This document shows, in pieces, positions 1,570 to 27,220 of a stretch of DNA of 32,229 bases. Position 1 is the first letter of the stretch. Each line of letters starts with the position of its first letter. Under the pieces are notes generated by a model, which ran no database searches, was not told the origin of the DNA, and was given only the letters and a program-made list of their open reading frames with translations. Source of the stretch: Acidobacteriota bacterium (GTDB lineage: Bacteria; Acidobacteriota; Vicinamibacteria; Vicinamibacterales; CAVVIG01). The translations under genes and the position numbers were made by a program. The stretch is taken from the NCBI GenBank assembly GCA_023265175.1, contig JAHFUI010000028.1, positions 1 through 32,229 on the forward strand, written 5' to 3'.

Positions 1570-4500
1570 CTAGAAAGCATACTTCACGCCGAACTGGATG
1601 ACTCGCGGGCTGCCGGCGGACGTAATCTGACCGAACGTCGCGCTGTTGCGAGCCGTGGACGGCTGTCCCCACTGGAACCAGTTCAGGGCGTTGAAGGCCT
1701 CGACTCGGACTTCCACGTTCTTCATGTTCGAGATCGAGATGTTTCGTGACAGGGCCAGATCGATGTTCTTGCTGCCCGGCCCGCGAACGCTGTTGCGCAC
1801 GCTCGTGCCGAGCGTACCGGCCGCCGGCTGCGCGAACGCCAACGAATCCAGGAACCGGATGCCCCCGTTCACCGGGTTGATGGACTGGTCGGCGTACGGA
1901 TTGTCGAGAATCTGATTCGCGCGCTGGGTGCCCGCCTGCCCGTTCAGTGCGATATCCTGGCCGGTGCCGATCGTAAGCCACGGGCCCGTCAACGCCCGGA
2001 AGCTGCCCGCCAGCCTCCAGTCGGAGAACGCGGCGCGCATCGCCGTGCTCTCGAACCGCGGCGATTGGATCGAGCCCGACACCGAGAAGTTGTGCAGCCG
2101 GTCCGACGAGCAGTTGCCGTTGTCGAAGCCGGGATTACTCGGGATGTTGTAGCCCACCGACACGTTGGTGGTGCCGCCGCCGTTGCCATCTGGCGATCCA
2201 TAGCAGTTCGACAGGGTGTAATTCACGTTGACCGTCGAGCCATAAGCGCCGCTGCCTCGAAGGGACAGCAGCATGCCCTTGTAGCGTTGCGTGCCGTCGG
2301 TCACATACAGATCCGTGGGTCCGTAATACTTCCCGTTGACCGGATCCGCCAGGAACAATGGACGGCGCGAGTTCAGAATGGTGGTCATGCACGAGCTGAA
2401 GTTGCTGGCCGTCGGCACGCAGGTTGTTTGCACACCGTTGGCGCCCACGCCGGTCAGCACGGTCGCGATACCATTATTGAGCGGCGTCGATTCCCAGAGG
2501 TTGTGGGTGCGGCTGCCCACGTAGCCCGCCGACGCGAGCCAGCGTCCGCCAAATTGCCGCTCGACCGTGACGTTCCACAGATCGACGTGGGTGGACGTCA
2601 TGTTGTCGCTCAAGCTCAGAAACGGTCCGTTGAGCGAAAACGGCGCGTTGGCGTCGAAGGTGATGGGGAAGATATTCGTTTGCCCGCCCGGGTTCCCCAA
2701 GAATGGATTGTCCAGGCCGCCCGGAGGCGCGTTGAGCCGGACTTCAGACCCCCACGGCGGCGCGGCCGAGGAGGTGTTCAAGTGAAACTGTGCGTTCACG
2801 AACTCATACGACCGGCCATACGAGGCCCGTACCGACGTCCGTCCGGTCCCGGTCGGATCCCAGGCGACTCCCACACGCGGTCCGAAATTCTTCCACTGCG
2901 TCTGCATGCCCGCCTGAGAGGGAAACCCGGCATCACCAGGGTAGAACAGCCCGGCCGGCCCCTTCGGAAAGACGACGCTGTGAACGTTCGACGTAAACCG
3001 CGTCATGTCGAACTGGTACACGGCGCCGTTCACCAATTGCTGCGGGAAGAACGGCTCCCACCGCAGCCCGTAATTGAGCGTCACGCGCGAACCCACTCTC
3101 CAGCCATCCTGCGCGTAGACCCCGAGGTATGTCTCCGCCATGTCCAACGTGTTCGGCGTCGACTGCACCAGCGCGTTGACGCCCATCTTGCCCAGCAGGA
3201 AGTCCGAGAGTGGTGTCCCGGTCTGCGTGCCGTCGATGGAGAACTGCCCCGGCGACCGCACGTTCGCGACCGAGAGCGAGGTCCAATGCGCCACGTTCAC
3301 GCCGTACGCGAATTGGTGCGCGCCCCGCACCAGCGTCATGTCGTCGCTGAGCTGCCACTCGTTGGTCGTGAAGTGCGATTCGATTTCCGTCCCGCCTCCG
3401 AGTTGAAAGCCCGTGGTTCCTGGCGCACCAACAGTCAGCAGCATGTAGTGCGGCATGTAGCTGTAGATGTTGATGCCCATTTCGGGCGCGGAGAAAAAGT
3501 CGGTGCTCGTGCGATGAATCGCGGTGCGATTGAACGAGAACCGCACGGCGTTGAGGGTCGTCGGCGAGAGGACGAAGTTCTCGCCGACCGTAAAGGTCTG
3601 CGCGAGGTTGTCCCGTCCGCCCGTGCGCGTCACCAGCAGGTTCTGCTGCGCGGCCTCGAGACTGAACGGCGGCGGCTGCACCACCTGCGTCGCGATGAAG
3701 CGTCCGAACAGCGAATGCTTGTTGCTCAACGTGTAGTCGATCTTGCCGACGTACTGCTGGTCGTCGTACGCGAACGGCTGACCGAACTGCACGAGGCCGC
3801 ACGGATCGGTGGTGGCCGGCAGCTTGGCGGTGATGTTGAGCGCCGCCTTGCTGAAGAGCGCCGGGTTCACTTTGTTGCCGACGAACGGCGCACCAAGGTT
3901 CTTCGCGATGCCGGCGTTGCACGCCGCGGAGGCAAAGGCGGTAAAGTCGCCGGCGAGCATCGCGGCAGTCGGCACGAACGCGCGGTTGTCGGTCGGGTTC
4001 TGGCGTGTGTTCGTCCCCTGAAAGCCGCCGAAGAAGAACAGCTTGTCGGTCTTGATCGGCCCGCCAAGCGTCACGCCGTACTGGTTGCGCTTCAACCCAT
4101 CGTCTTTCCGGTTGCCGGCTGCGTCCTTTGCTGCAAACGGATCGGTCGCGTTCAGACTGTGATGGCGGAAGAACTCGAACCCATCGCCGCGGAACGAGTT
4201 AGTGCCCGATTTCGTGACGACGTTCACCGCCGCGCCGGAGTGGAAGCCATTCTGTGCCGTCAGGGCGCTCGTTTCCGCCTTGAACTCCTGCAACGCGTCC
4301 GGAAACGGCAGCGGCAGGTTCAGGTTGTCGTACGGGTTGTTGTGCGTCGCCCCGTCCAGGACGTACGCCACGCCGAAGGACACGCCCCCGGCCACGGAGT
4401 AGGCTTGCCCGCCCTGCATGCTCCGGCTGCTCGCGTTGAGCGCCGGTTGCGGGACGACGGCCGGCAACAACTGGATGAGGTCGGCCGCGTTGCGTCCGTT

Positions 4501-4944
4501 GATCGGCAGCTCCATGATCCGCTTGTTGTCCATCACCTGCCCGACACCCAGCTTGCCAGTGTCGATGAGTGGAGACTCGCCGGTCACCGTCACGTTCTCG
4601 GCCACCCCGCCGAGCGACAGGATGACGGGAATACTCGGGGCGCTGCCGACCTGGAGCACGATGCCGGTCTGCGCGTAGGATTTGAATCCGGCCAGGCTCA
4701 CTTCCAACCGATAGGGACCGACGGGGAGGCCAGGAACACTGAACGAGCCGGTCCCATCCGTCACCACGTTACGCTTGAGTCCCGTATCGGTCTGCGTCAC
4801 GGTGACGTCTGCGCCGGGCAGAACGCCGCCGCTTGAATCCTTGACCGTCCCGCTGATTTGAGCTGTGGCTTGCGCTCGAACGACCGTCGCGGTCAATACA
4901 ACGAGCAGCACTCCACTCAGTACACCACTCAGAACGCGCTTCAT
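1570..4944 (-). CDS. TonB-dependent receptor, Oar-like, copy 1
   Basis: A 1,124-residue outer-membrane receptor. The chosen start is the ATG at 4944, preceded by AGGAGG and followed by a signal peptide (MKRVLSGVLSGVLLVVL, ending VVRAQ); the frame extends upstream but overlaps the promoter. Residues 28-110 are a carboxypeptidase-regulatory Ig-like domain (ISGTVKDSSGGVLPGADV, FSVPGLPVGPYRLEVSLAGF). A plug domain follows (IMELPINGRNAADLIQLLP, AYVLDGATHNNPYDNL, GAAVNVVTKSGTNSFRG), then a long barrel ending in VIQFGVKYAF, whose terminal Phe is the usual BAM recognition residue. No substrate can be inferred. The 3' end is almost identical in DNA to receptor 2 (1600-2155 versus 5173-5728), while the middle diverges. 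It has its own promoter and is followed by two secreted-protein genes. Confidence 0.92.
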   Translation of the reverse strand: MKRVLSGVLSGVLLVVLTATVVRAQATAQISGTVKDSSGGVLPGADVTVTQTDTGLKRNVVTDGTGSFSVPGLPVGPYRLEVSLAGFKSYAQTGIVLQVGSAPSIPVILSLGGVAENVTVTGESPLIDTGKLGVGQVMDNKRIMELPINGRNAADLIQLLPAVVPQPALNASSRSMQGGQAYSVAGGVSFGVAYVLDGATHNNPYDNLNLPLPFPDALQEFKAETSALTAQNGFHSGAAVNVVTKSGTNSFRGDGFEFFRHHSLNATDPFAAKDAAGNRKDDGLKRNQYGVTLGGPIKTDKLFFFGGFQGTNTRQNPTDNRAFVPTAAMLAGDFTAFASAACNAGIAKNLGAPFVGNKVNPALFSKAALNITAKLPATTDPCGLVQFGQPFAYDDQQYVGKIDYTLSNKHSLFGRFIATQVVQPPPFSLEAAQQNLLVTRTGGRDNLAQTFTVGENFVLSPTTLNAVRFSFNRTAIHRTSTDFFSAPEMGINIYSYMPHYMLLTVGAPGTTGFQLGGGTEIESHFTTNEWQLSDDMTLVRGAHQFAYGVNVAHWTSLSVANVRSPGQFSIDGTQTGTPLSDFLLGKMGVNALVQSTPNTLDMAETYLGVYAQDGWRVGSRVTLNYGLRWEPFFPQQLVNGAVYQFDMTRFTSNVHSVVFPKGPAGLFYPGDAGFPSQAGMQTQWKNFGPRVGVAWDPTGTGRTSVRASYGRSYEFVNAQFHLNTSSAAPPWGSEVRLNAPPGGLDNPFLGNPGGQTNIFPITFDANAPFSLNGPFLSLSDNMTSTHVDLWNVTVERQFGGRWLASAGYVGSRTHNLWESTPLNNGIATVLTGVGANGVQTTCVPTASNFSSCMTTILNSRRPLFLADPVNGKYYGPTDLYVTDGTQRYKGMLLSLRGSGAYGSTVNVNYTLSNCYGSPDGNGGGTTNVSVGYNIPSNPGFDNGNCSSDRLHNFSVSGSIQSPRFESTAMRAAFSDWRLAGSFRALTGPWLTIGTGQDIALNGQAGTQRANQILDNPYADQSINPVNGGIRFLDSLAFAQPAAGTLGTSVRNSVRGPGSKNIDLALSRNISISNMKNVEVRVEAFNALNWFQWGQPSTARNSATFGQITSAGSPRVIQFGVKYAF

Positions 4945-5009
4945 CGCGCCTCCTCTTCCCAGGCGGACAGGGCCGCACTTAAACAGACGAAATATTGCGA
5001 CAGCGGACG

Positions 5010-5037
5010 AGTATAACTCGCCAAATCGCATTAGCAA
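5010..5037 (-). promoter_or_regulatory. Sigma70-like promoter of TonB receptor copy 1
   Basis: Read on the minus strand: a -35-like TTGCTA (5032-5037), a 16-nt spacer and a -10 TATACT (5010-5015). This gives a leader of about 60 nt before the ATG at 4944. The -10 lies inside the perfect 13-nt palindrome CGAGTTATACTCG. The equivalent promoter of copy 2 has the same -10 and spacer. Confidence 0.6.
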
Positions 5038-5142: not shown

Positions 5143-8100
5143 CTAGAACGCATACTTCAGGGCGAACTGTATGACTCGCGGGCTGCCGGCGGACGTAATC
5201 TGACCGAACGTCGCGCTGCTGCGAGCCGTGGACGGCTGTCCCCACTGGAACCAGTTCAGGGCGTTGAAGGCCTCGACCCGGACTTCCACGTTCTTCATGT
5301 TCGAGATCGAGATGTTTCGTGACAGGGCCAGATCGATGTTCTTGCTGCCCGGCCCGCGAACGCTGTTGCGCACGCTCGTGCCGAGCGTACCGGCCGCCGG
5401 CTGCGCGAACGCCAACGAATCCAGGAACCGGATGCCCCCGTTCACCGGGTTGATGGACTGGTCGGCGTACGGATTGTCGAGAATCTGATTCGCGCGCTGG
5501 GTGCCCGCCTGCCCGTTCAGTGCGATATCCTGGCCGGTGCCGATCGTAAGCCACGGGCCCGTCAACGCCCGGAAGCTGCCCGCCAGCCTCCAGTCGGAGA
5601 ACGCGGCGCGCATCGCCGTGCTCTCGAACCGCGGCGATTGGATCGAGCCCGACACCGAGAAGTTGTGCAGCCGGTCCGACGAGCAGTTGCCGTTGTCGAA
5701 GCCGGGATTACTCGGGATGTTGTAGCCCGTCGACACGTTGGGCGTGCCGCCGCCGCTGCCATCGGGCGATCCGTAGCAGTTCGACAGCGTGTAGTTCACA
5801 TTGACGCTCGAGCCATGAGCGCCGTTGCCTCGAAGCGACAGCAGCATGCCCTTGTAGCGTTGCGTGCCGTCGGTCACATACAGATCCGTGGGTCCGTAAT
5901 ACTTCCCGTTGTTCGGATCGGCCAGGAACAAGGGACGGCGCGAATTCAGGTTGGTGGTGCTTGGTGCGGCACCGTTGACCGTGACGAAGAGGCCGTTGTT
6001 GAGCGGCGTCGATTCCCAGATGTTGTTCGTCCGGCTCCCCACATAACCGGCCGACGCGAGCCAGCGTCCGCTGAATTGCCGTTCGACCGTGACGTTCCAC
6101 AGATCGACGTGGGTGGACGTCATGTTGTCGCTCAAGCTCAGAAACGGTCCGTTGAGCGAAAACGGCGCGTTCTGATCGAACGTGACCGGGAAGATGTTCG
6201 TGTTCCCGCCCGGATTGCCCAGGAACGGATTGTCCAGGCCGCCTGGGGGCGCGTTCAGCCGAACTTCCGATCCCCACGGCGGCGCGACCGAGGTGTTGAT
6301 GTGGAACTGTCCGTTCACGAACTCGTACGACCGGCCGTACGACGCCCGTACCGACGTCCGTCCGGTCCCGGTCGGATCCCAGGCGACTCCCACGCGCGGC
6401 CCGAAATTCTTCCACTGCGTTTCCATCCCCGCCTGGGTGGGGAACCCGGAATCGCCAGGGAAGTACAGCCCGGCCGGTCCCTTCGGGAAGACCGTGCTGT
6501 GAATGTTCTGCGTGAACCGCGTCATGTCGAACTGATACACGGCGCCGTTCACCAACTGCTGCGGGAAAAACGGCTCCCACCGCAGCCCGTAATTGAGCGT
6601 CACGCGCGAACCCACTCTCCAGCCATCCTGCGCGTAGACTCCGAGGTATGTCTGCTGCATGTCCAACGTGTTCGGGGCCGCCTGCACGAGTGCGTTCGTG
6701 CCCATCCTTCCCAACAGGAAGTCGGACAACCCGGTGCTGGTCGTCGCACCGCCGGTCTGCGTCCCATCGATGCTGAGCGCGCCCGGGGACCGCACGTTGG
6801 CCTGCGAGAGCGACGTCCAATGCGCCACGTTGACGCCGTACGCAAATTGATGGGCGCCTCTCACCAGCGTCATGTCGTCGCTGACCTGCCACGCGTTGGT
6901 CGTGAAGTGCGATTCGCTTTCCGTCCCGCCTCCGAGACTGAACCCGTTGGTCACGTTCAGCAGCATGTAGTGCGGCATGTAGCTGTAGATGTTGATGCCG
7001 ACCTCTGGCGCGGAGAAAAAGTCGGTGCTCGTGCGATGAATCGCGGTGCGATTGAAGGCAAAACGCACCGCGTTCAGCGTCGTGGGGCTGATCACGTAGT
7101 TCTCGCCGACCGTGAACGTCTGGGCCAGGTTGTCCCGCCCGCCAATTCTCGTCACCAGCAGGTTCTGCTGCGCGGCTTCAAGGCCATAGGGGGGCGGTGT
7201 GAACTGCGTGGTCGCGATGTACCGGCCAAAGAACGAGTGCTTATTGCTCACCTGATAGTCGACCTTACCCACATACTGTCCTTCGTCGGTCGCACTGGGT
7301 AAACCGTACTGTACGAGTCCGCACGGATCCGTGGTGGTCGGCAGCTTGGCGGTGATGTTGAGCGCCGCTTTGCTGAACAGCGCCGGATTGACCTTGTTGC
7401 CGACGAACGGGGTACCGAGGTTTTTCGCGATGCCGCTATTGCACGCCGCGGAGGCAAAGGCGGTGAAGTCGCCCGCCAGCATCGCGGCAGTCGGCACGAA
7501 CGCGCGGTTGTCGGTCGGGTTCACGCGTTCGTTCGTCCCCTGAAAGCCGGCGAAGAAGAACAGCTTGTCCGTCTTGATCGGCCCGCCGATCGTCGCGCCG
7601 TACTGGTTGCGCTTCCGCCCGTCGTCTTTCCGGTTGCCGGCTGCGTCCTTTGCCGCAAACGGATCGGTCGCGTTGAGACTGTGATGGCGGAAGAACTCGA
7701 ACGCGTCGCCGCGGAACGAGTTGGTGCCCGATTTGGTCACGACGTTCACCGCCGCGCCGGAGTGAAACCCGTTCTGAGCCGTCAGGGCGCTCGTTTCCGC
7801 CCTGAACTCCTGTAACGCGTCGGGGAACGGCAGCGGCAGGTTCAGGTTGTCATACGGGTTGTTGTGCGTCGCGCCGTCCAGGACGTACGCCACGCCGAAG
7901 GCCGCCCCCCCGGCCACGGCGAAGCCCAATCCCCCTTGGGACCCTTGCATGCTCCTGCTGCTTGAGCTCCCCTGCGGGACGACGGCTGGCAATAGTTGGA
8001 TCAGATCGGCCGCGTTGCGGCCGTTGAGCGGCAGGTCCATGATCCGCTTGTTGTCCATCACCTGCCCGACGCCCAGCTTTCCGGTATCAATGAGCGGGGA

Positions 8101-8469
8101 TTCGCCGGTGACCGTCACATTCTCGGCCACCGCGCCGAGCGACAGGGTGACGGGGATACTGGGGGCACTGCCGACCTGGAGCACGATGCCGGTCTGCGCG
8201 TAGGATTTGAAGCCGGTCAAGCTCACTTCCAACCGATAGGGACCGACGGGGAGGCCGGGGACACTGAACGAGCCGGTCCCATCCGTCACCACGCTACGCT
8301 TGAGTCCCGTATCGGTCTGCGTCACGGTGACGTCGGCGCCGGGCAGAACGCCGCCGCTTGAATCCTTGACCGTCCCGCTGATTTGAGCTGTGGCTTGCGC
8401 TCGAACGACCGTCGCGGTTAATACAACGAGCAGCACTCCACGAAGTACACCACTCAGAACGCGCTTCAT
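5143..8469 (-). CDS. TonB-dependent receptor, Oar-like, copy 2
   Basis: A 1,108-residue paralogue of the receptor at 1570-4944 with the same domain order: signal peptide (MKRVLSGVLRGVLLVVL), carboxypeptidase-regulatory domain, plug (IMDLPLNGRNAADLIQLLP) and barrel ending VIQFALKYAF. The start at 8469 has AGAGAGG upstream and lies downstream of a very good promoter. The N-terminal and C-terminal DNA is close to identical to copy 1. The plug loops (GSSSSRSMQGSQGG versus PALNASSRSMQGGQ), parts of the extracellular loops and a region around 5960-6000 differ, including small insertions. This pattern suggests tandem duplication, diversification of exposed segments and homogenisation of the ends. 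It is divergently oriented from the hydrolase gene at 8694. Ligand unknown. Confidence 0.92.
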   Translation of the reverse strand: MKRVLSGVLRGVLLVVLTATVVRAQATAQISGTVKDSSGGVLPGADVTVTQTDTGLKRSVVTDGTGSFSVPGLPVGPYRLEVSLTGFKSYAQTGIVLQVGSAPSIPVTLSLGAVAENVTVTGESPLIDTGKLGVGQVMDNKRIMDLPLNGRNAADLIQLLPAVVPQGSSSSRSMQGSQGGLGFAVAGGAAFGVAYVLDGATHNNPYDNLNLPLPFPDALQEFRAETSALTAQNGFHSGAAVNVVTKSGTNSFRGDAFEFFRHHSLNATDPFAAKDAAGNRKDDGRKRNQYGATIGGPIKTDKLFFFAGFQGTNERVNPTDNRAFVPTAAMLAGDFTAFASAACNSGIAKNLGTPFVGNKVNPALFSKAALNITAKLPTTTDPCGLVQYGLPSATDEGQYVGKVDYQVSNKHSFFGRYIATTQFTPPPYGLEAAQQNLLVTRIGGRDNLAQTFTVGENYVISPTTLNAVRFAFNRTAIHRTSTDFFSAPEVGINIYSYMPHYMLLNVTNGFSLGGGTESESHFTTNAWQVSDDMTLVRGAHQFAYGVNVAHWTSLSQANVRSPGALSIDGTQTGGATTSTGLSDFLLGRMGTNALVQAAPNTLDMQQTYLGVYAQDGWRVGSRVTLNYGLRWEPFFPQQLVNGAVYQFDMTRFTQNIHSTVFPKGPAGLYFPGDSGFPTQAGMETQWKNFGPRVGVAWDPTGTGRTSVRASYGRSYEFVNGQFHINTSVAPPWGSEVRLNAPPGGLDNPFLGNPGGNTNIFPVTFDQNAPFSLNGPFLSLSDNMTSTHVDLWNVTVERQFSGRWLASAGYVGSRTNNIWESTPLNNGLFVTVNGAAPSTTNLNSRRPLFLADPNNGKYYGPTDLYVTDGTQRYKGMLLSLRGNGAHGSSVNVNYTLSNCYGSPDGSGGGTPNVSTGYNIPSNPGFDNGNCSSDRLHNFSVSGSIQSPRFESTAMRAAFSDWRLAGSFRALTGPWLTIGTGQDIALNGQAGTQRANQILDNPYADQSINPVNGGIRFLDSLAFAQPAAGTLGTSVRNSVRGPGSKNIDLALSRNISISNMKNVEVRVEAFNALNWFQWGQPSTARSSATFGQITSAGSPRVIQFALKYAF

Positions 8470-8534
8470 TGCGCCTCTCTTCCCAGGCGGACAGGGCCAC
8501 ACTTAGACAGACAAAAATATTGGGACGGTCAGCG

Positions 8535-18989: not shown

Positions 18990-19730
18990 ATGCCTCACAT
19001 CCCCCCCCAAGCCGATCGCCGTCCGGAGCCAGCCGCGCAGCCGCCGGCACGGTCCGGCGTCATCGAACTCGTCCTGGCCGAAAGCTATCCCCTTCTGCTC
19101 GAAGGCATGCAGTCCGCTTTTACCTTCGAGGCCGGCTTCCGCGTCCTCGCCGCTTGTGCGGACGGCGACGAAGCGTTGCGTGCAGTCGGCCGGCATCATC
19201 CCGACGTGCTCGTCATGGATCTCGAGATCCCCGGCGACGCACTGCGAATCCTGGGAGAGCTTTCGGGCAAGGGCTTGCCGACTCACGTCGTGTTGTACGC
19301 CGCCAGTCTCGATGAAGCCGTGATGCTCGAAGCGATGCGGCTCGGGGCAAAGGGCATCGTGCTCAAGACCATGAGCCGGCACCTGTTGGTGCAATGCGTG
19401 CGCAAAGTTCATCGCGGTGGGACGTGGGTCGAAAAAGTTTCGATGAGCCGGGCCGTCGACGAGCTCCTGCGCTACGAAGCCGCATACCGCGATGCCGCTG
19501 CCGTGCTGAGCGTGCGGGAGCTCGAGGTCATCCGAATGGTGGCCAGCGGCCAATCGAACAAGGAGATCGCCGACCAGCTGGCCGTGAGCCATGGCACCGT
19601 TAAGGTCCACCTTCATCACGTCTATCAGAAGCTCGGTGTCAAAGGCCGTCTCGAGCTCGCGCTCTACGCCCGCGAGAAGGGGCTGTTCTCGTCTCTCGCC
19701 CCGGGCCGCCCGCGCCAACTCTCCAAGTAG
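18990..19730 (+). CDS. NarL/LuxR-type response regulator 1
   Basis: A 246-residue transcription regulator with a receiver domain (about 25-145) and a LuxR-type HTH (about 172-230). The receiver keeps the phospho-acceptor D77 in VLVMDLEIPG and the lysine in GIVLKTM. Its acidic pair is E31-S32 (VLAESYP) and the usual Thr/Ser after strand 4 is Ala (HVVLYAAS), so phosphorylation control may be weak. The HTH reads LSVRELEVIRMVASGQSNKE with recognition helix HGTVKVHLHHVYQKLG. A Pro/Ala-rich N-terminal extension of about 23 residues precedes the receiver, and no good Shine-Dalgarno is seen. It is the first of three similar regulators flanking the usher-like locus; no sensor kinase is present in the window. 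Confidence 0.9.
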   Translation: MPHIPPQADRRPEPAAQPPARSGVIELVLAESYPLLLEGMQSAFTFEAGFRVLAACADGDEALRAVGRHHPDVLVMDLEIPGDALRILGELSGKGLPTHVVLYAASLDEAVMLEAMRLGAKGIVLKTMSRHLLVQCVRKVHRGGTWVEKVSMSRAVDELLRYEAAYRDAAAVLSVRELEVIRMVASGQSNKEIADQLAVSHGTVKVHLHHVYQKLGVKGRLELALYAREKGLFSSLAPGRPRQLSK

Positions 19731-19833: not shown

Positions 19834-20517
19834 ATGGCATCCCGTGTGGTCCGCGCGCCGGTCCTGGAAAGCAACGCCGGCGAGAGGATCGGCCTCACCC
19901 TGGCCGGCGGTTACCCGATCGAGCTTTGGGGGATGCGGCACGTGTTCGGGGCCGAGCCGGATATCGAGGTGCTTGACTACTGTACGAGCGGTGACGAGAC
20001 GGTTGCCGCGATCGCGGCTCGCAACCCTGCAGTTCTCGTTCTCGACCTGCAGCTTCCGCCAGGTGGAATGGCCGTGTTGCACGAGCTGGCCCGCCGCCAT
20101 CCCTCCACACGCGTGGTGCTGCTCGCGACCCGTGTCAGCGACGATGTCATGCTGGAGGCGGTGCGACTCGGCGTCAAAGGCGTGGTGCTCAAAGACATGC
20201 CGACGGGCCTGCTCGTCCAGTGCGTCCGCCGCGTCGCCCGCGGGTTCACCTGGATCGAGAACGGGTCGTGTACGCGGGTGGTCGATCGCATGGCGCGGCA
20301 CGACGCCACGGTGCGCGACCTGTCGAAGAGACTCACACGGCGCGAGCTCCAGATTCTGCAGCTTGTCGCGGAGGGACTCCGCAACAAGGACATCACGGCG
20401 AAACTCGCCATCGCCGAAGGGACGGTCAAGGTCCACCTGCATCACATCTACGGCAAACTCGGTCTCAACGATCGGCTGAAGCTGGCCCTCCGCACGCGCG
20501 ACGAACGGATCGCCTGA
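19834..20517 (+). CDS. NarL/LuxR-type response regulator 2, degenerate receiver
   Basis: A 227-residue regulator. The receiver (about 18-135) keeps D71 in LVLDLQLPPGG and K120 in GVVLKDM but has lost both acidic residues that bind Mg2+: the end of strand 1 reads TLAGGYP (24-28). The Thr/Ser position is A98 (VVLLATR). Conventional phosphorylation is therefore doubtful. The LuxR HTH (about 160-220) reads LTRRELQILQLVAEGLRNKD with recognition helix EGTVKVHLHHIYGKLG, nearly identical to that of regulator 3. It follows regulator 1 by 103 nt, the gap carrying one copy of the 37-bp element, and converges on the usher-like gene. No typical ribosome site is seen. Confidence 0.9.
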   Translation: MASRVVRAPVLESNAGERIGLTLAGGYPIELWGMRHVFGAEPDIEVLDYCTSGDETVAAIAARNPAVLVLDLQLPPGGMAVLHELARRHPSTRVVLLATRVSDDVMLEAVRLGVKGVVLKDMPTGLLVQCVRRVARGFTWIENGSCTRVVDRMARHDATVRDLSKRLTRRELQILQLVAEGLRNKDITAKLAIAEGTVKVHLHHIYGKLGLNDRLKLALRTRDERIA

Positions 20518-20644: not shown

Positions 20645-23600
20645 TTAACGACCGACGACCTGCGACGGCCGGTCTCGCACCAAACGTTCAATCGTCGCTT
20701 CGCGCGGCGGGTCCGCGAGAAACGGCGCAAGGCTCAACTCCTGCGGCTCCTTGGCGGGATGGATCTCGACCTTCATGATCGGTTCCGCGACGGTGCTGCC
20801 GGGGGACAGCGTCTCGGCGTCGACCCGCACGTAGTACTGTCCAGGTCTCAGGTCCGCCAGATAATACTTGCCCTGCTGGTCGGTGACGGAGTCGCCAAGC
20901 TCCTTGTCATCCGCCGCCCGCGTCAGATACACGCGAACGCCAGGCATGGGCTGAGCACCCTGCAGCGGATTCATCGCCTCGACCGCGCCCGAAACGGAAT
21001 TGAGGGGACTGACGCCAAAGTTGACCTCGGTGACGTTCCCGGAACGGATGACGGCGGTCTGGATGGCGTGTGTTGGCGAGTAAATGGCTGGAACGGTATC
21101 GACGTCGAGAAACACGCGATGCTTTGCCGTCTCACCCGATCCGGCGAACACAAAATATCCGTTTCTGTCCGTCAGCACCCTGGTGCCATCGTCCATCACG
21201 ACGCGCACGGCGTTCACGCCCGGCTCGTCTGGATCCAGCCTGCCGTCTGCGTTGGCATCGACGAACACCCTGCCGCGAATCGCTCCGCGGTCCGGCGTGA
21301 CGGTCGAATCCGAGAGCAGAACCGGCGCGCCGCGGCCCTGACTGAACAGCTCGCTGAAGGTGACCGTCACCAGGCTTGTCCACTTTCCCATCTCGTGCCG
21401 GACGTCGACTCCAATCCGGTTCTTGCCGGCGCGATCGAACCGATAGTCGGCGCGGTGTTCGAAGAAGGCCTTCTGATAGTTCGCGTCATAGCCAAGCTCC
21501 GTGAACAACCGAATGGATGTCCCCTTCAGTGAGAACGAATCGACAATCGATGTCCGCTTCTTGCCCTGGCCATCCCAGTACGTGGCTCCCAGGGTGTGTC
21601 CTGGCCTGACAGCCACCCTGAAGGTTGCCGCAACGGCAGCGGGCTGGTACGTGGAGAAGCCGTCGAAGCTGAGCCCACTCAGGAAATCCGAGACGTTCAC
21701 CGAGTCCGGATACCGGCCTCTTGAAACAGTCGCCTCGAGGTCGGCGTTCGAGAACGGCGTGGCCTGGACCTTCATTGTGTAGAGCGTCGCGGGAGCGCGA
21801 TCCCCTAGGTTTAAAGACAGCCTCGTGGCTCCTCCGGTGACGGTGAGCCTCGGATTTGGGCTCGACGTGATTTCAAGGTTTTGAAAACTCAAGTGAAGCG
21901 GCGCGTCCGCGCGCCCGTCGAGGTCGTTCCGTATAGAGGCTCCGGCCGAAGATGCTCTCCAATGCCGGTTAATATTCCAGTTGGCGCCAAAGGCGTATCC
22001 TTCGCGATCTCTCAGCGTCAGATTCTGTCCGTTGAAGAACCACGGACTGTAAGCGAACCACTGCGACCGTATCTGCGTGTCATGCGTCGGATAGAGCTCG
22101 GCTTTGACCTTGTAGGCGCGGCCATCGGAAGCGCCCTGGTTTCCACTTCCGTTGCTGAACGAGATGTCGCCCGAGAGCTGCGCGTGTTCCGAGGGCAGCC
22201 AGGCGACTTGTGCGCCCTTGTGCACGCTCGACGTGGGGTACGGCCGCAAGCCGGTGCTTGAAGGGTCTGTCGCGGCCGACCTCAGAGTACCCGCTTGCGC
22301 GGCCCACGTCGTTCCGACGGTCAGCGAGTCGGTGAGGCCATAGAGAATTCTCTCGGCGCCCAGCACGCCTAGTGCCGTCCAGTCCTGCTCGCGACGGTTC
22401 GTGCCCAGGCCTCCGAGATGCGCAAGGCCGCCTTTGGGAAGCTGGACGGATTTCCCGAACATGTTCTTCTCGATCACCCGCTGGACGCCGCTGGCCTCAG
22501 TGATGACGATCTGGACGCTGTTGAGCACTCCGGGCGCCAGACGCACCTCCTCGAAACGGTACGTCCCCACCAGCACCACCTGGGTCTCGATGCTCCGGCC
22601 GTTGACGATGAGCTCGACGCGCGAGCCCGCCGGGGCCGCGCCCTCGAAAACCTGCGATCGGGCGAAGGATTTCCCCATCCCCGAAGGGGTCCCATGCTGC
22701 CCCTTGGCACCCCGAACGCCTGACAGCCCATTAAAGCGAACGCCCGTCATCCGGAGAATGGGAAACGTCAAGTCGTTCACGCCGAACACGGCGTCGCCCA
22801 CCGAGACGTCGGTATCGTGGAACGAAGCGCTCCATTCCAGGTGACTCACCACGATCGGCGACGTGATGGCGGCCCTCACACCCGCACTGCTCCGCGCGGC
22901 CCAGGGCTCGGCCATCTGCAGCCGGTATCGTCCACCGAAGGCGCTTCCCCACAGCGTTTCTCTTGGAGCGTCGATGGCCAGAGTTGCCGACTGCAATGGC
23001 GAGGCGCTCCCCGACGTGCTGAGGTAGGGGCTGAGCTCGAACTGCACGAAATCGACGCTCAAGCCGTGCGGCCAGGCTGCGGGAAAGAGTTCCGGCAGAT
23101 TCATCGCCGCCCTTGTGGTCTTGACGCCAAGGAGTGACGCGCCGAAGCCCTTCCACACATCCAGTTGCCGATCCGTCTTGGCGACGAACCGGTAGCCAGG
23201 CTCGTCCCACTCGATCTGGATCCCCAGGCTCTTGCCCACGACGGCAGGGTCAAGGTAGATCTCGTCTTTCAATGTGATATCGGAGACACCGGTGACCGAC
23301 TCGATGGATTCGGTCGTGTCGCCGATGCGAATCTCTTTCTTGACGACGTCAACGATGACCGTGACGTTGCCGGCCGAAGCGAAGGAAACCGTGGCACCTG
23401 TTTCGTGTTTCTCGACCTGAAAGGCGTCGAGCAACCGATGCAGCGGGATCAGGCGAGCTCCGGGCGGCGTCAGCACTGTGTCGAGGTCGTCAATCGCCAG
23501 CCGTTCGAACACCTTCGGCCCGCTGAGATCGAAACCCACGACCTCTGTGTGAAGCGCCGCGCCCCCGGCCGGCTCATCGATCGTCGTCGGCTCATCCCGT

Positions 23601-23713
23601 TCGGACCGCCGTACGTCGCCGTTTCTTGGCGCAGGAAGCCCTGGGTCGGCGCCGACCGGTTTCGGCGCCGCCACGACGGCGCACGCGAAGAACAACATCC
23701 ACGCGGCTCGCAC
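20645..23713 (-). CDS. Usher-like outer-membrane protein with SdrD-B-like C-terminus
   Basis: About 1,022 residues from the GTG at 23713, chosen because it lies 14 nt after the chaperone stop; ATG 23698 is the alternative, while ATG 23797 would overlap the chaperone by 70 nt. A signal peptide (MLFFACAVVAAPKPVGA) is followed by a region like the stalk or amine-oxidase N-domain (about 87-179: ARLIPLHRLLDAFQVEK, YLDPAVVGKSLGIQIEWDE). Residues 358-417 resemble the usher plug and its flanks (AGSRVELIVNGRSIE, GTYRFEEVRLAPG, VQIVITEASGVQR). A long strand-rich barrel region follows. The C-terminus has an SdrD-B-like domain from about 810 (GRVFVDANADGRLDPDEPG, a calcium-type loop) and a CnaB-like domain (GKYYLADLRPGQYYVRVD). 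Role inferred: secretion or anchoring of the two small proteins encoded upstream. Homology to classical FimD is weak by eye. Confidence 0.7.
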   Translation of the reverse strand: MRAAWMLFFACAVVAAPKPVGADPGLPAPRNGDVRRSERDEPTTIDEPAGGAALHTEVVGFDLSGPKVFERLAIDDLDTVLTPPGARLIPLHRLLDAFQVEKHETGATVSFASAGNVTVIVDVVKKEIRIGDTTESIESVTGVSDITLKDEIYLDPAVVGKSLGIQIEWDEPGYRFVAKTDRQLDVWKGFGASLLGVKTTRAAMNLPELFPAAWPHGLSVDFVQFELSPYLSTSGSASPLQSATLAIDAPRETLWGSAFGGRYRLQMAEPWAARSSAGVRAAITSPIVVSHLEWSASFHDTDVSVGDAVFGVNDLTFPILRMTGVRFNGLSGVRGAKGQHGTPSGMGKSFARSQVFEGAAPAGSRVELIVNGRSIETQVVLVGTYRFEEVRLAPGVLNSVQIVITEASGVQRVIEKNMFGKSVQLPKGGLAHLGGLGTNRREQDWTALGVLGAERILYGLTDSLTVGTTWAAQAGTLRSAATDPSSTGLRPYPTSSVHKGAQVAWLPSEHAQLSGDISFSNGSGNQGASDGRAYKVKAELYPTHDTQIRSQWFAYSPWFFNGQNLTLRDREGYAFGANWNINRHWRASSAGASIRNDLDGRADAPLHLSFQNLEITSSPNPRLTVTGGATRLSLNLGDRAPATLYTMKVQATPFSNADLEATVSRGRYPDSVNVSDFLSGLSFDGFSTYQPAAVAATFRVAVRPGHTLGATYWDGQGKKRTSIVDSFSLKGTSIRLFTELGYDANYQKAFFEHRADYRFDRAGKNRIGVDVRHEMGKWTSLVTVTFSELFSQGRGAPVLLSDSTVTPDRGAIRGRVFVDANADGRLDPDEPGVNAVRVVMDDGTRVLTDRNGYFVFAGSGETAKHRVFLDVDTVPAIYSPTHAIQTAVIRSGNVTEVNFGVSPLNSVSGAVEAMNPLQGAQPMPGVRVYLTRAADDKELGDSVTDQQGKYYLADLRPGQYYVRVDAETLSPGSTVAEPIMKVEIHPAKEPQELSLAPFLADPPREATIERLVRDRPSQVVGR

Positions 23714-23727
23714 ACCGACGCCCCGTG

Positions 23728-24582
23728 CTATGGCGAGGGCTTCACCACGAGCGGGAAGTCGCTGGCGATTGGTTCTCTCAGCTGCGAGGAGCGACATTCG
23801 ACGTGCACGCTGTACGTGCCCTCGGGGAGCCTCGCGCTGAGCTGGCTGGAAACAGTCTGATCCAGGCCGGGAAGGATATACGACGCAGCGATCGAGCCGT
23901 TTTCGACCGACTGTCCCGCGCTGTTCCTGATCACGTATTGCCCTTGTAGGAGCAGCTTCCCTTCCCCCGTGTTCTTGATTATGAACTGGATCCTCTGACC
24001 CAGGTTTGCCGGGGCGACGTTCACGCCCTCCAGCAGTCCTCCGTAGCGAACCTTGCCGAACGTTCCAAAGATCGGCACGAGGAGGCTCGAGATGACCTGC
24101 AGGCGCAGATCTCGACCAGAGGCGTCCTTGGCCATCGACATGGACGTTTTCAGCGATTCCAGCTCCATCGCGGCCCAGTACTCACCCGTCTTCAACAAAC
24201 CTTGGGGCACGATCACATACCGGATGATCCGTTCGGTCCGCGGGCCTACCGTGAATTCGGTCGGATTGAACTTGACCCACGTGGCCAGCGAATGCTCGTT
24301 CGGCTGGACGTGATTCAGCCCTCCGTCCTTCGTGAAGGTGAAGTGGATCGCCCGGATGCGATATCGTTCCTCTTCGTCGCCCAGGTTCGAAATCAAGAAT
24401 TGCCCGGCGGCACGCCCCCCGTTCAAGCTGACTTCAACGTACGCAGGCGACACGGAAATGGCCGCCTGCGCTTCCCTGATGGACAACGGGACGAGGGCCA
24501 CCAGCGCGAGGACGACTGCGAGGGCGTTTCGGACAACGCGCGTCTCGCAGGAGATTCGTGTGTCGACGGTCTTCATTGACAT
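23728..24582 (-). CDS. PapD-like periplasmic chaperone
   Basis: 284 residues from ATG 24582 (MSMKTVDTR; ATG 24576 is equally possible). An N-terminal signal peptide (NALAVVLALVALVPLSIREAQA) is followed by ISVSPAYVEVSLNGGRAAGQ and strand patterns of two Ig-like domains. Domain 1 contains FLISNLGDEEERYRIRAIHF, WVKFNPTEFTVGPRTERIIR and YVIVPQGLLKTGEYWAAMEL, the layout of fimbrial chaperones, in which a basic residue-rich strand precedes the interdomain hinge. Domain 2 (VPIFGTFGKVRYGGLLEG, FIIKNTGEGKLLLQGQYVIR) is also strand-rich. Family members hold pilin subunits by donor-strand complementation. It lies between the second small secreted gene (72-nt gap) and the usher-like gene (14-nt gap), the classical gene order. 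Sequence similarity to PapD is distant. Confidence 0.68.
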   Translation of the reverse strand: MSMKTVDTRISCETRVVRNALAVVLALVALVPLSIREAQAAISVSPAYVEVSLNGGRAAGQFLISNLGDEEERYRIRAIHFTFTKDGGLNHVQPNEHSLATWVKFNPTEFTVGPRTERIIRYVIVPQGLLKTGEYWAAMELESLKTSMSMAKDASGRDLRLQVISSLLVPIFGTFGKVRYGGLLEGVNVAPANLGQRIQFIIKNTGEGKLLLQGQYVIRNSAGQSVENGSIAASYILPGLDQTVSSQLSARLPEGTYSVHVECRSSQLREPIASDFPLVVKPSP

Positions 24583-24654
24583 CACTCGTTTCGATGAATG
24601 CGACGTGGCAGTTGGCACAAATGTCACGTCTGCCGACCTGTATTAGATAGAGGA

Positions 24655-25251
24655 TTAGGACCCGGGCTGTCCGGGCTGTGGCGGAATCAGCCCCATCAGC
24701 TTGATGACGCCATAGTAATCGCCCGTTGGTTGCTGGGCGGTGGGGTCGAGGTACCAAGAAACCGTCGTCGTGACGTTCTGGCTGAAATTACCCGCATCAG
24801 AGGATTCCAAAACGACCGATTGGGTCTTCGCCACTGGGAACCCATTCACGACCTGTTCTCCAGAGTTGGCGCTCCAGGGCAAGCTCGCGGGGCCGGCTTG
24901 GCCGCCCACCCCGCCGTGCTGGGCCTCAATTGTCGGGGGTGTTTGATCCAGAGGGATCGGAAGAACCGAACTGTTCGGATCTCCGGCCTTGTACAGCTTT
25001 GAGGCCTCCAGACAGAACTGGAGGTATTGCTCATTCGCATCGACACGCCACGTCGCCGCGACGGAGAACGTACCGTTCTGAACCGAGCCGAGCTCCCAGA
25101 TCTGGCTGTTCGCCGACATCGCGATTTGCGGATTGATTTGGACGTGAACTCGAGTGACCGCACTGGCATACATGTCGGCATACACGGGCTGTGAGCCCCC
25201 GTGAACCGCGGCGAGTCCCACCAGTGCGACTAACGCTAGCGTTTTCTTCAT
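24655..25251 (-). CDS. Small secreted protein, putative fibre subunit 2
   Basis: 198 residues. The ATG at 25251 has AAGGAG upstream and begins a signal peptide (MKKTLALVALVGLAAVHGG, cleavage near VYAD). The mature protein is strand-rich with no other recognisable domain. It is clearly paralogous to the product of the neighbouring gene at 25317: IAMSANSQIWELGSVQNGTF and WRVDANEQYLQFCLEASKLY match IAMAPVQPLWDLSTILNGSF and WRVEANVQSIQMMVEASDLF, and both end in a strand then LIPP (TGDYYGVIKLMGLIPPQ). A middle glycine-rich loop (QHGGVGGQAGPASLPW) is specific to this copy. The context (chaperone and usher-like genes directly downstream) makes a surface-fibre subunit the best guess; no known pilin signature is present. 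Confidence 0.75.
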   Translation of the reverse strand: MKKTLALVALVGLAAVHGGSQPVYADMYASAVTRVHVQINPQIAMSANSQIWELGSVQNGTFSVAATWRVDANEQYLQFCLEASKLYKAGDPNSSVLPIPLDQTPPTIEAQHGGVGGQAGPASLPWSANSGEQVVNGFPVAKTQSVVLESSDAGNFSQNVTTTVSWYLDPTAQQPTGDYYGVIKLMGLIPPQPGQPGS

Positions 25252-25316
25252 ACAAGTCTCCTTGACGAGTCGGTTAACGTGACATCTGTGCCAGTCGTGG
25301 GCATGGGCCGTGCTCG

Positions 25317-25901
25317 CTACCGAACAGCCTCGGCGGGCGGCGGAATCAGCGTGGTGATCTTCACTCGAGCGCCGTACTGACCCATGGGTTTGATGCTTTC
25401 CTGCTGGTTGTAGTAAATCCGCGTCGTGACGAGCTGACTGAAAATGCCGACCTGCGAGCTTACATACGTGACCGTCTCCGTGCGCGTGGTCGGGAAGTTG
25501 TTGATCGAGGTGCCGGCGCCTATCCACACCGCCCGATTGGCCCCGTTCACGCCGTTTGCACGTTCGGCCGTAATCTCGACGGGCCTGCTGGAATCGAGCA
25601 GGATTGGCGCGATCTCCGTGTTCGACGGATCGTCGCCCTTGAAGAGATCCGACGCCTCGACCATCATCTGGATCGACTGGACGTTGGCCTCGACGCGCCA
25701 GGTGATGACCGCGCTGAAGGAGCCGTTGAGGATCGTGCTCAGATCCCAGAGCGGCTGAACCGGCGCCATCGCGATGCTGGCGGGCACGGTCCCGAGGAGG
25801 CGCGTCATCCCGCTGGCCTGCGTTTGAGCCTGGGTGATGGGTGCCGTGATACGGAGCAATGCCAATCCCACAATCAGTCCGATCGGTAAGGAACGCCTCA
25901 T
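25317..25901 (-). CDS. Small secreted protein, putative fibre subunit 1
   Basis: 194 residues from ATG 25901 (MRRSLPIGL); a GTG at 25916 in the same frame is the alternative, and neither has a clear Shine-Dalgarno. A signal peptide (IGLIVGLALLRITAPITQAQ) precedes a strand-rich mature region homologous to the gene at 24655. Shared features are the LWDLSTILNGSF block, WRVEAN, an LxxSxx segment in the middle (ILLDSSRPVEI), FSQLVTT before the final strands, and the ending VKITTLIPPP. Paired homologous subunits next to a PapD-like chaperone suggest major and minor fibre components or successive tip and shaft subunits (inference). It is first after a 37-bp regulatory element and 65 nt ahead of subunit 2. 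Confidence 0.72.
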   Translation of the reverse strand: MRRSLPIGLIVGLALLRITAPITQAQTQASGMTRLLGTVPASIAMAPVQPLWDLSTILNGSFSAVITWRVEANVQSIQMMVEASDLFKGDDPSNTEIAPILLDSSRPVEITAERANGVNGANRAVWIGAGTSINNFPTTRTETVTYVSSQVGIFSQLVTTRIYYNQQESIKPMGQYGARVKITTLIPPPAEAVR

Positions 25902-25950
25902 ACACCGGCGACGCACCGCGCCGAGTCAAATATCCGGCGCGCGGCGGTCT

Positions 25951-25987
25951 TGCGCAATAAACCGGCGGCGATCTTTTCTATAACGGT
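25951..25987 (-). promoter_or_regulatory. 37-bp element, copy B (upstream of subunit 1)
   Basis: In gene orientation it contains CCGTTATAG, an A-rich stretch and GCCGCCGGTTTATTGC. These blocks are identical to those of the copy at 27184-27220. It lies between the PilZ stop and the subunit 1 start, 49 nt before the ATG at 25901. Confidence 0.65.
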
Positions 25988-25991
25988 CGTT

Positions 25992-26330
25992 CTAGACACT
26001 GACGCCTGCTCTCGCCTCGTCCTGCCGGATGAACGCATAGCTGTCGATCGTCGCCGCGAAGACGCGACCGTTGAGCTGGCTCGCGTCGGCGCGGACGATT
26101 CGCCCGTGGCAAATGAGGTCGGCGAGCTGCGCTGCCTGATCCGGATGCCACGACAAGCCGAAGATCAACTCGACTTCCGCTCCCATGAACGGGCTCTCTT
26201 CGGCTCGAACGAGAACGCCGGACCGGCTGACGTTCACGCTCACCGCGTCGGACCAGGTGGCGTCGCCCCGCCGCCGCCAGAAGATCGGAATGCCCATAGA
26301 GAACCGTGGTGCGCGCGTCACGCAATCCAT
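25992..26330 (-). CDS. PilZ-domain protein
   Basis: A 112-residue single-domain cytosolic protein. AAGGAG stands about 10 nt before the ATG at 26330. The N-terminus has basic residues (CVTRAPRFSMGIPIFWRRRG) and the central motif VNVSRSGVLVRA contains N-x-S-x-x-G, the c-di-GMP-contacting signature of PilZ domains; the Arg motif RxxxR is approximate here (R6-x2-R9). The rest (GAEVELIFGL, ICHGRIVRA, GRVFAATIDSYAFI) fits the PilZ beta-barrel strands. It lies 39 nt after regulator 3 and 75-90 nt before subunit 1, all on the same strand, so it is likely part of the surface-fibre operon and a candidate c-di-GMP input to it. Confidence 0.8.
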   Translation of the reverse strand: MDCVTRAPRFSMGIPIFWRRRGDATWSDAVSVNVSRSGVLVRAEESPFMGAEVELIFGLSWHPDQAAQLADLICHGRIVRADASQLNGRVFAATIDSYAFIRQDEARAGVSV

Positions 26331-26369
26331 GAGAAGCGGTCTCCTTCCATCGGCGAGCGACCGGACGGT

Positions 26370-27089
26370 TCAGGCCAGCGTGTCCCCGCGGGCGCACAAT
26401 GCCAGCTGCACGCGGTTGTTCATCCCGAGCTTCCCGTAGATGTGGTGCAGGTGGATCTTCACCGTGCCTTCCGTGATGTGGAGCCGTGCCGTCATTTCCC
26501 TGGTCTGGAGGCCGTCGGCGACCAGACGGAGGATCTCCATCTCGCGGCGGGTCAGCCGCGCCTTCAGGCCGTGCAGCGTCGTCGCGTGCCGGCGCATGCG
26601 CTCGACCACGGCGCCGATCGAACCGGTTTCGAGCCAGCTGCCTCCCCAATGCACGCGCCGGACGCATTCCAGCAGGAGCTGCGGAGCCATCTCCTTGAGG
26701 ACCACCCCTCGAACGCCCGCCCGGACCGCTTCCATCACTTCGTCTTCGGTGACGCTGCTTGTCAGCAGCACCACGCGCGTGGAGCGGTTGCGGCGCGCGA
26801 GCTCGCGGACGAGCGGCAGGCCTCCGTGCGGCGGCAGACGCAGGTCGAGCACGAACAGGTCGGGGTCGTGCTTCAGGACGGCATCGAGCGCCTGCGGCGC
26901 CGTCGTGCAGCCGGCGAGAACTTCGAAATCTGATTCCGCGTCGAGGAGATGCTCCAGGCCGTGCAGGGCGATGGGGTGACCGTCGGCGATCACCAGCCCG
27001 GCCCGGAACCGGCCGTGCTGTGCGACGGAGCCGGACGTCTCACCCGCTTGCGAGGCGCCTGACTCGATTGACGCTGTCGAAGTCACCAT
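26370..27089 (-). CDS. NarL/LuxR-type response regulator 3
   Basis: A 239-residue regulator. The receiver (about 30-145) is the most normal of the three: D36 in VIADGHP (the second acidic residue is Gly37), phospho-acceptor D82 in FVLDLRLPPHGG, T in RVVLLTSSVTEDE and K in GVVLKEM. The HTH reads LTRREMEILRLVADGLQTRE with recognition helix EGTVKIHLHHIYGKLG, almost the same as in regulators 1 and 2. A Ser/Ala-rich N-terminal extension of about 28 residues is present. It heads the proposed operon with PilZ, the two subunit genes, chaperone and usher-like gene, and one copy of the 37-bp element lies upstream, suggesting it acts on its own promoter and on that of subunit 1. Confidence 0.92.
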   Translation of the reverse strand: MVTSTASIESGASQAGETSGSVAQHGRFRAGLVIADGHPIALHGLEHLLDAESDFEVLAGCTTAPQALDAVLKHDPDLFVLDLRLPPHGGLPLVRELARRNRSTRVVLLTSSVTEDEVMEAVRAGVRGVVLKEMAPQLLLECVRRVHWGGSWLETGSIGAVVERMRRHATTLHGLKARLTRREMEILRLVADGLQTREMTARLHITEGTVKIHLHHIYGKLGMNNRVQLALCARGDTLA

Positions 27090-27183: not shown

Positions 27184-27220
27184 CCGGCAATAAACCGGCG
27201 GCAGGTTTTCCTATAACGGC
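27184..27220 (-). promoter_or_regulatory. 37-bp element, copy C (upstream of regulator 3)
   Basis: In gene orientation: GCCGTTATAGGAAAA, then GCCGCCGGTTTATTGC. It lies 94 nt before the regulator 3 start, in the 152-nt gap after trxA. Apart from a central 3-6 nt and the ends, it is identical to copy B. Confidence 0.65.

Follow-up and report, generated by a model that had tools for sequence, protein, structure and literature searches.

The described systems that come closest to the locus reported here are two chaperone-usher (CU) pili, namely, the archaic (sigma) Csu pili of Acinetobacter (CsuC/CsuD) and the alternative (alpha) common pilus of Escherichia coli (ECP; matA/ecpR-ecpABCDE), and the Gram-positive WxL/WxLIP proteins. 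ECP is a two-subunit fibre system composed of EcpA and EcpD, one proline is invariant across all CU chaperones (Pro59 of CsuC, strand D1), and Arg89 in strand F1 marks the chaperones of the archaic and alternative clades (PMC4654587). For WxLIP, insertion of a strand into WxL has been predicted (PMC10599100). Its tandem immunoglobulin (Ig) domains, of DUF916/DUF3324-like fold, bind a small surface protein; it carries a membrane helix at the C-terminus, and no usher takes part in its action. Here we describe a six-gene operon in a stretch of 32,229 nt, hereafter called the window (contig JAHFUI010000028.1, assembly GCA_023265175.1), from a bacterium related to soil Acidobacteriota. The operon probably belongs to a divergent branch of chaperone-usher export operons, and its subunits would be joined into a thin surface fibre; its chaperone and usher are true, remote homologues of their chaperone-usher counterparts.

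All six genes are codirectional on the minus strand, in the order NarL-type regulator, PilZ-like protein, the two putative subunits sub1 and sub2, chaperone and usher-like protein. The intergenic gaps measure 39 nt (NarL-PilZ), 75-90 nt (PilZ-sub1, depending on the start codon), 65 nt (sub1-sub2), 27-72 nt (sub2-chaperone, likewise) and 14 nt (chaperone-usher), and the coordinates agree with the order, strand and spacing of 14-90 nt given in the original prediction, which had been made from the DNA alone. The N-termini of the usher, the chaperone, sub1 and sub2 are signal-peptide-like. In a Pfam scan the chaperone, sub1 and sub2 all stayed without a match above cut-off, an Rfam search had no match, and neither a promoter nor a terminator consensus is conspicuous. 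The layout of regulator, subunits, chaperone and usher with a LuxR-type regulator in first place is that of ECP, but the operon in the window is devoid of a second chaperone and of an EcpD-type adhesin.

The chaperone gene (positions 23728 to 24582) encodes 284 aa from its ATG, and a GTG start at 24627 is possible. The AlphaFold model of the protein, computed from ten sequences (mean pLDDT 82.1), has the PapD-type tandem-Ig fold that a CU chaperone requires, so that the PapD-like Ig chaperone that had been proposed is found again in the predicted structure. In a VIA-align comparison the top structure was WxLIP of Enterococcus faecium (Z 18.0, 228 residues, rmsd 5.6), followed by the usher-pathway chaperones YadV (Z 14.4, 189 residues, rmsd 4.4), CsuC and CupB2 (both 13.9), Caf1M and FimC (both 13.8) and CfaA (13.1). 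WxLIP (2.7e-6) and CsuC (0.0023) were also the only PDB profile matches below 0.01; single-protein PDB searches with the chaperone or the usher gave no match. In Pfam, PapD_N is matched by four of 12 members of the chaperone family (best 2.2e-7) and WxLIP_PGBD by nine (best 4.2e-5). A profile of this family, from which canonical chaperones had been kept out, was applied to the open reading frames (ORFs) of 11 loci with canonical PF00577 ushers and recovered exactly one ORF beside each usher (11/11; E 2.7e-25 to 8.9e-8) and no other, which is the strongest evidence that the protein is a sequence homologue of canonical CU chaperones. Its residue P107, invariant in the family, aligns with the invariant proline of CsuC.

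The usher-like gene (20645 to 23713) starts with GTG and encodes 1022 aa. The product consists of an N-domain, a plug at about residues 345-425, a putative barrel and, from about residue 810, two CnaB/SdrD-type C-terminal domains, the last of which has the CnaB/prealbumin fold (Z 13.2, 93 residues, rmsd 1.9). Pfam recognises only SdrD_B/CarboxypepD_reg, in the C-terminal region, the PF00577 cut-off is not reached (E 0.27), and a faint TcfC-like match at the plug (E 0.25) is a likeness to ECP. In a comparison of alignments, hhalign of the usher family against nine canonical ushers gave a Prob of 98.9 (E 1.9e-17), and 99.3 over 643 columns after removal of the rows from Deinococcus and from the relative L044, while reversed and column-shuffled controls stayed at or below 0.1 and the reversed pair of the window usher and its relative L071 at 0.6. 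The plug alone matched the canonical ushers with Prob 95.4 (E 1.7e-8) and the canonical plug with 96.8 (reversed control 1.0), and the C-terminal domains reached 92.7-95.8 (reversed 0.1-0.2). These pieces each align with the corresponding part of the canonical ushers in the correct order; the barrel piece alone gave a weak profile match. Single FimD or EcpC sequences gave no significant match to the usher family; significance requires alignment against alignment. The whole-usher model is poor (mean pLDDT 46.9) and better only at the plug and the C-terminus; the eight top Foldseek matches are all FimD chains, and the long match to FimD, with a TM of 0.12, is supportive only. Homology to canonical ushers is thus well supported by profile comparison.

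The original prediction had also proposed to look for the same gene order elsewhere, and the arrangement does recur in independent lineages, which makes it more than chance. When 396 genomes from the same phylum were searched with the usher-like protein, 50 gave matches, mostly to the C-terminal region, and a chaperone homologue was present in 18 of the 20 loci read at length, mostly adjoining the usher-like gene. In 247 genomes screened with the chaperone and usher-like profiles (counts read off tables), a divergent usher match lies within 5 kb on the same strand for 26 of 39 chaperone places, and an ordinary PF00577 usher stands beside five further ones. The chaperone-usher pair recurs across Acidobacteriota. 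L071 is the locus closest to the operon as a whole, where three sub1/sub2 homologues are followed by a chaperone (E 3e-42) and a full-length usher relative (3.2e-75); its contig is labelled Gammaproteobacteria bacterium OFTM226, which is the depositor's label, with mis-binning possible. Two Deinococcus plasmids (L080, NZ_CP140100.1; L081, CP058536.1) carry a chaperone relative, a small gene and then a gene for 1018-1090 aa, annotated as hypothetical or carboxypeptidase-like. A genome-contig scan with the usher alone gave no match, and a chaperone alignment was needed there; a search of a viral collection and a plasmid search with the L071 usher also gave none. Within the bacterium's own family, a chaperone match at 1e-5 is found in two of 27 genomes, one of them the genome under study, and the operon is therefore accessory.

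A plug-less form of the usher-like protein (about 750-880 aa) occurs in Aminicenantes and several relatives of the same order and matches canonical ushers at its C-terminal end only. The relatives that combine a chaperone of the same kind with an usher-like protein without detectable plug or N-domain are L033, L035, L039, L040, L063-L067 and L072-L079. Two plug profiles detected no plug in the short proteins; the ushers of L043, L048 and L049 possess one. In many Aminicenantes loci, chaperone and usher are separated by two additional small genes for exported proteins. A far-reaching reading would treat the cassette, including the ushers without plug and N-domain, as a separate top-level donor-strand branch that links the Gram-negative chaperone-usher and the Gram-positive WxL/WxLIP systems, with one common ancestor of fibre chaperones and WxLIP; we consider this conceivable but doubtful.

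Somewhat less probable is the view that the operon is a fast-evolving member of the archaic clade and represents no separate branch. With Csu pili the operon shares the chaperone fold, a profile match to CsuC, the invariant proline and, in its usher, the plug and the C-terminal domains. In favour of this view, the tree of 29 chaperones (17 of them divergent), which is unrooted and has long branches, attaches the divergent set among unresolved archaic-type rows. Moreover, the same genome encodes two PF00577 ushers (L105 and L106, on contigs C164 and C107), and several SCPU-like pilin genes adjoin the one on C107. However, a branch (95/89) separates all 17 divergent chaperones from the archaic-type, FimC and EcpB/E rows, and the window chaperone pairs with that of L071 (100/99). 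Arg89, which defines the archaic and alternative clades, is missing from the protein, which speaks against membership of either; SCPU-type homology was not detected in sub1 or sub2, and the usher misses PF00577 and has no detectable PapC_N-type domain. As to the classical clades, whose chaperones have two basic carboxylate anchors in domain 1 (Arg20 and Lys139 of Caf1M), the position of the FimC arginine falls on Y48 in a weak alignment. Judged from these sequences, the divergent chaperones are a branch separate from the archaic, alternative and classical ones. The divergent chaperone-usher branch that had been postulated gains support from structure prediction for the chaperone fold and from profile comparison for the usher.

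The exported proteins sub1 (25317 to 25901; 194 aa from ATG, with a possible GTG start at 25916) and sub2 (24655 to 25251; 198 aa) were rightly described as homologous secreted proteins, as they share 35% identity over 192 residues (E 1e-34), and L071 has homologues at the same position. Gene order, position, signal peptides, size and paralogy point to a role as putative fibre subunits. Whole-protein signals between sub1/sub2 and the Aminicenantes subunits (Prob 78) and between the latter and SCPU (Prob 86) vanished without the signal peptides, and we dropped them because the signal peptides were their source. Two W-x-L triplets in sub2 and 'YTATLTYTLTAP' ends in relatives raised the idea of WxL domains, which has no Pfam or PDB support and is a lead only. 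Three proteins of the relatives' subunit set match DUF4402 (best 1.2e-27). The two arms of a 25-nt inverted repeat (84%) stand exactly on either side of sub2 (24613-24637, plus strand; 25269-25293, minus strand), and the repeat is absent elsewhere in the genome at up to three mismatches. Its arms are predicted by RNA folding to pair across the gene (z -3.6); the repeat may reflect mRNA processing, an invertible cassette or a duplication scar.

Several observations weigh against a fibre-building chaperone-usher operon. The subunits of CU systems have an incomplete Ig fold and an N-terminal donor strand. Profile searches of sub1 and sub2 with signal peptides removed found no pilin homology and no SCPU-type match, a remote relation being possible, and both proteins have short tails beyond the last predicted strand, as do not subunits anchored by their C-terminal carboxylate. 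Strand F1 of the chaperone reads GEYWAAMELES and contains neither Arg nor Lys, hence the missing Arg89. The N-domain of the usher, the part that in CU systems binds the complexes of chaperone and subunit, is modelled without confidence; it does not match canonical ushers by profile and resembles Cu_amine_oxidN1 weakly instead. The barrel region has many predicted strands, mostly with pLDDT below 50, and the model is too poor to judge a barrel; of the usher-like barrel protein originally proposed, the plug and the C-terminal domains are matched in canonical ushers and the 24-strand barrel stays putative. Finally, fibre assembly is inferred from the genes.

Taken together, a CU-like working of the operon is likely, and its product is most likely a thin surface fibre. 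The export of single proteins or of a short two-subunit tip complex by a chaperone-usher homologue, with no long fibre, would suit the presence of only two subunit genes, the window's lack of an evident gene for an adhesin or a terminator and the missing pilin homology, but ECP is a known fibre system with two subunits and L071 has three paralogous ones, and we regard this option as improbable. That the Ig protein is a WxLIP-like surface partner holding sub1 and sub2 at the cell surface, in a complex merely anchored by the barrel protein, is very improbable: WxLIP is its closest solved structure and best profile match and has the predicted strand insertion into WxL, but the Ig protein ends in FPLVVKPSP without a membrane helix, Pfam finds no WxL domain in sub1 or sub2, the barrel protein carries an usher plug and usher-type C-terminal domains, and the same Ig-protein profile recovers true usher-pathway chaperones.

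For the fibre-building operon, we propose that sub1 and sub2 would cross the inner membrane via their signal peptides and that the chaperone would cap each of them with its own G1 beta strand (about residues 158-175), lent for the purpose. From there the complex would pass to the outer-membrane usher, whose plug would open, and donor-strand exchange would join the subunits into the fibre. As a guess, a 33-nt element may be the site through which expression is controlled by NarL and perhaps, via the PilZ protein, by c-di-GMP.

This element is present in two copies on the minus strand, ahead of NarL (27187 to 27219) and ahead of sub1 (25954 to 25986), as a direct repeat with 28 of 33 positions equal and no other copy in the genome at up to three mismatches. 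Within it, CCGTTAT and CCGGTTTAT form a direct repeat with a spacing of about two helical turns. The element is a possible operator or promoter element, and its two positions suggest shared control of NarL and sub1. The response regulator of NarL/LuxR type (26370 to 27089; 239 aa) matches Response_reg (6.7e-20) and GerE (6.5e-17). The PilZ-like protein (25992 to 26330; 112 aa) has a PilZ E-value of 0.0012 and remains under the Pfam cut-off (19.5 versus 22.5 bits); c-di-GMP binding is uncertain because NxSxxG is present without RxxxR. Most of the relatives read lack both genes, which do not belong to the conserved core, and a NarL gene upstream in the same direction at the L044 locus is a weak parallel, such regulators being common. 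The built-in NarL and PilZ control of the original prediction is thus weakened as a feature of the branch, and the genome-unique repeat gives a hint of shared control in this operon. Two further NarL-type regulators end just past the usher gene (18990-19730 and 19834-20517, plus strand), with 41% and 54% identity to that of the operon, respectively. Elsewhere in the window, the tandem genes at 1570-5037 and 5143-8502 (minus strand) encode large outer-membrane barrel proteins with OMP_b-brl_4 and CarboxypepD_reg (E ~1e-172).

We found no paper on this operon type in the open-access literature, a scope outside which most subscription journals lie. Surveys that depend on the Pfam models for ushers and chaperones would overlook this branch, and the Deinococcus plasmid genes are a case in point, labelled as hypothetical. 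The closeness of the chaperone to WxLIP turns the origin of fibre chaperones into a testable question, and the relatives with apparently plug-free ushers make it testable which parts of an usher are truly needed. If fibres are indeed built, this route of surface attachment would be wider than charted.

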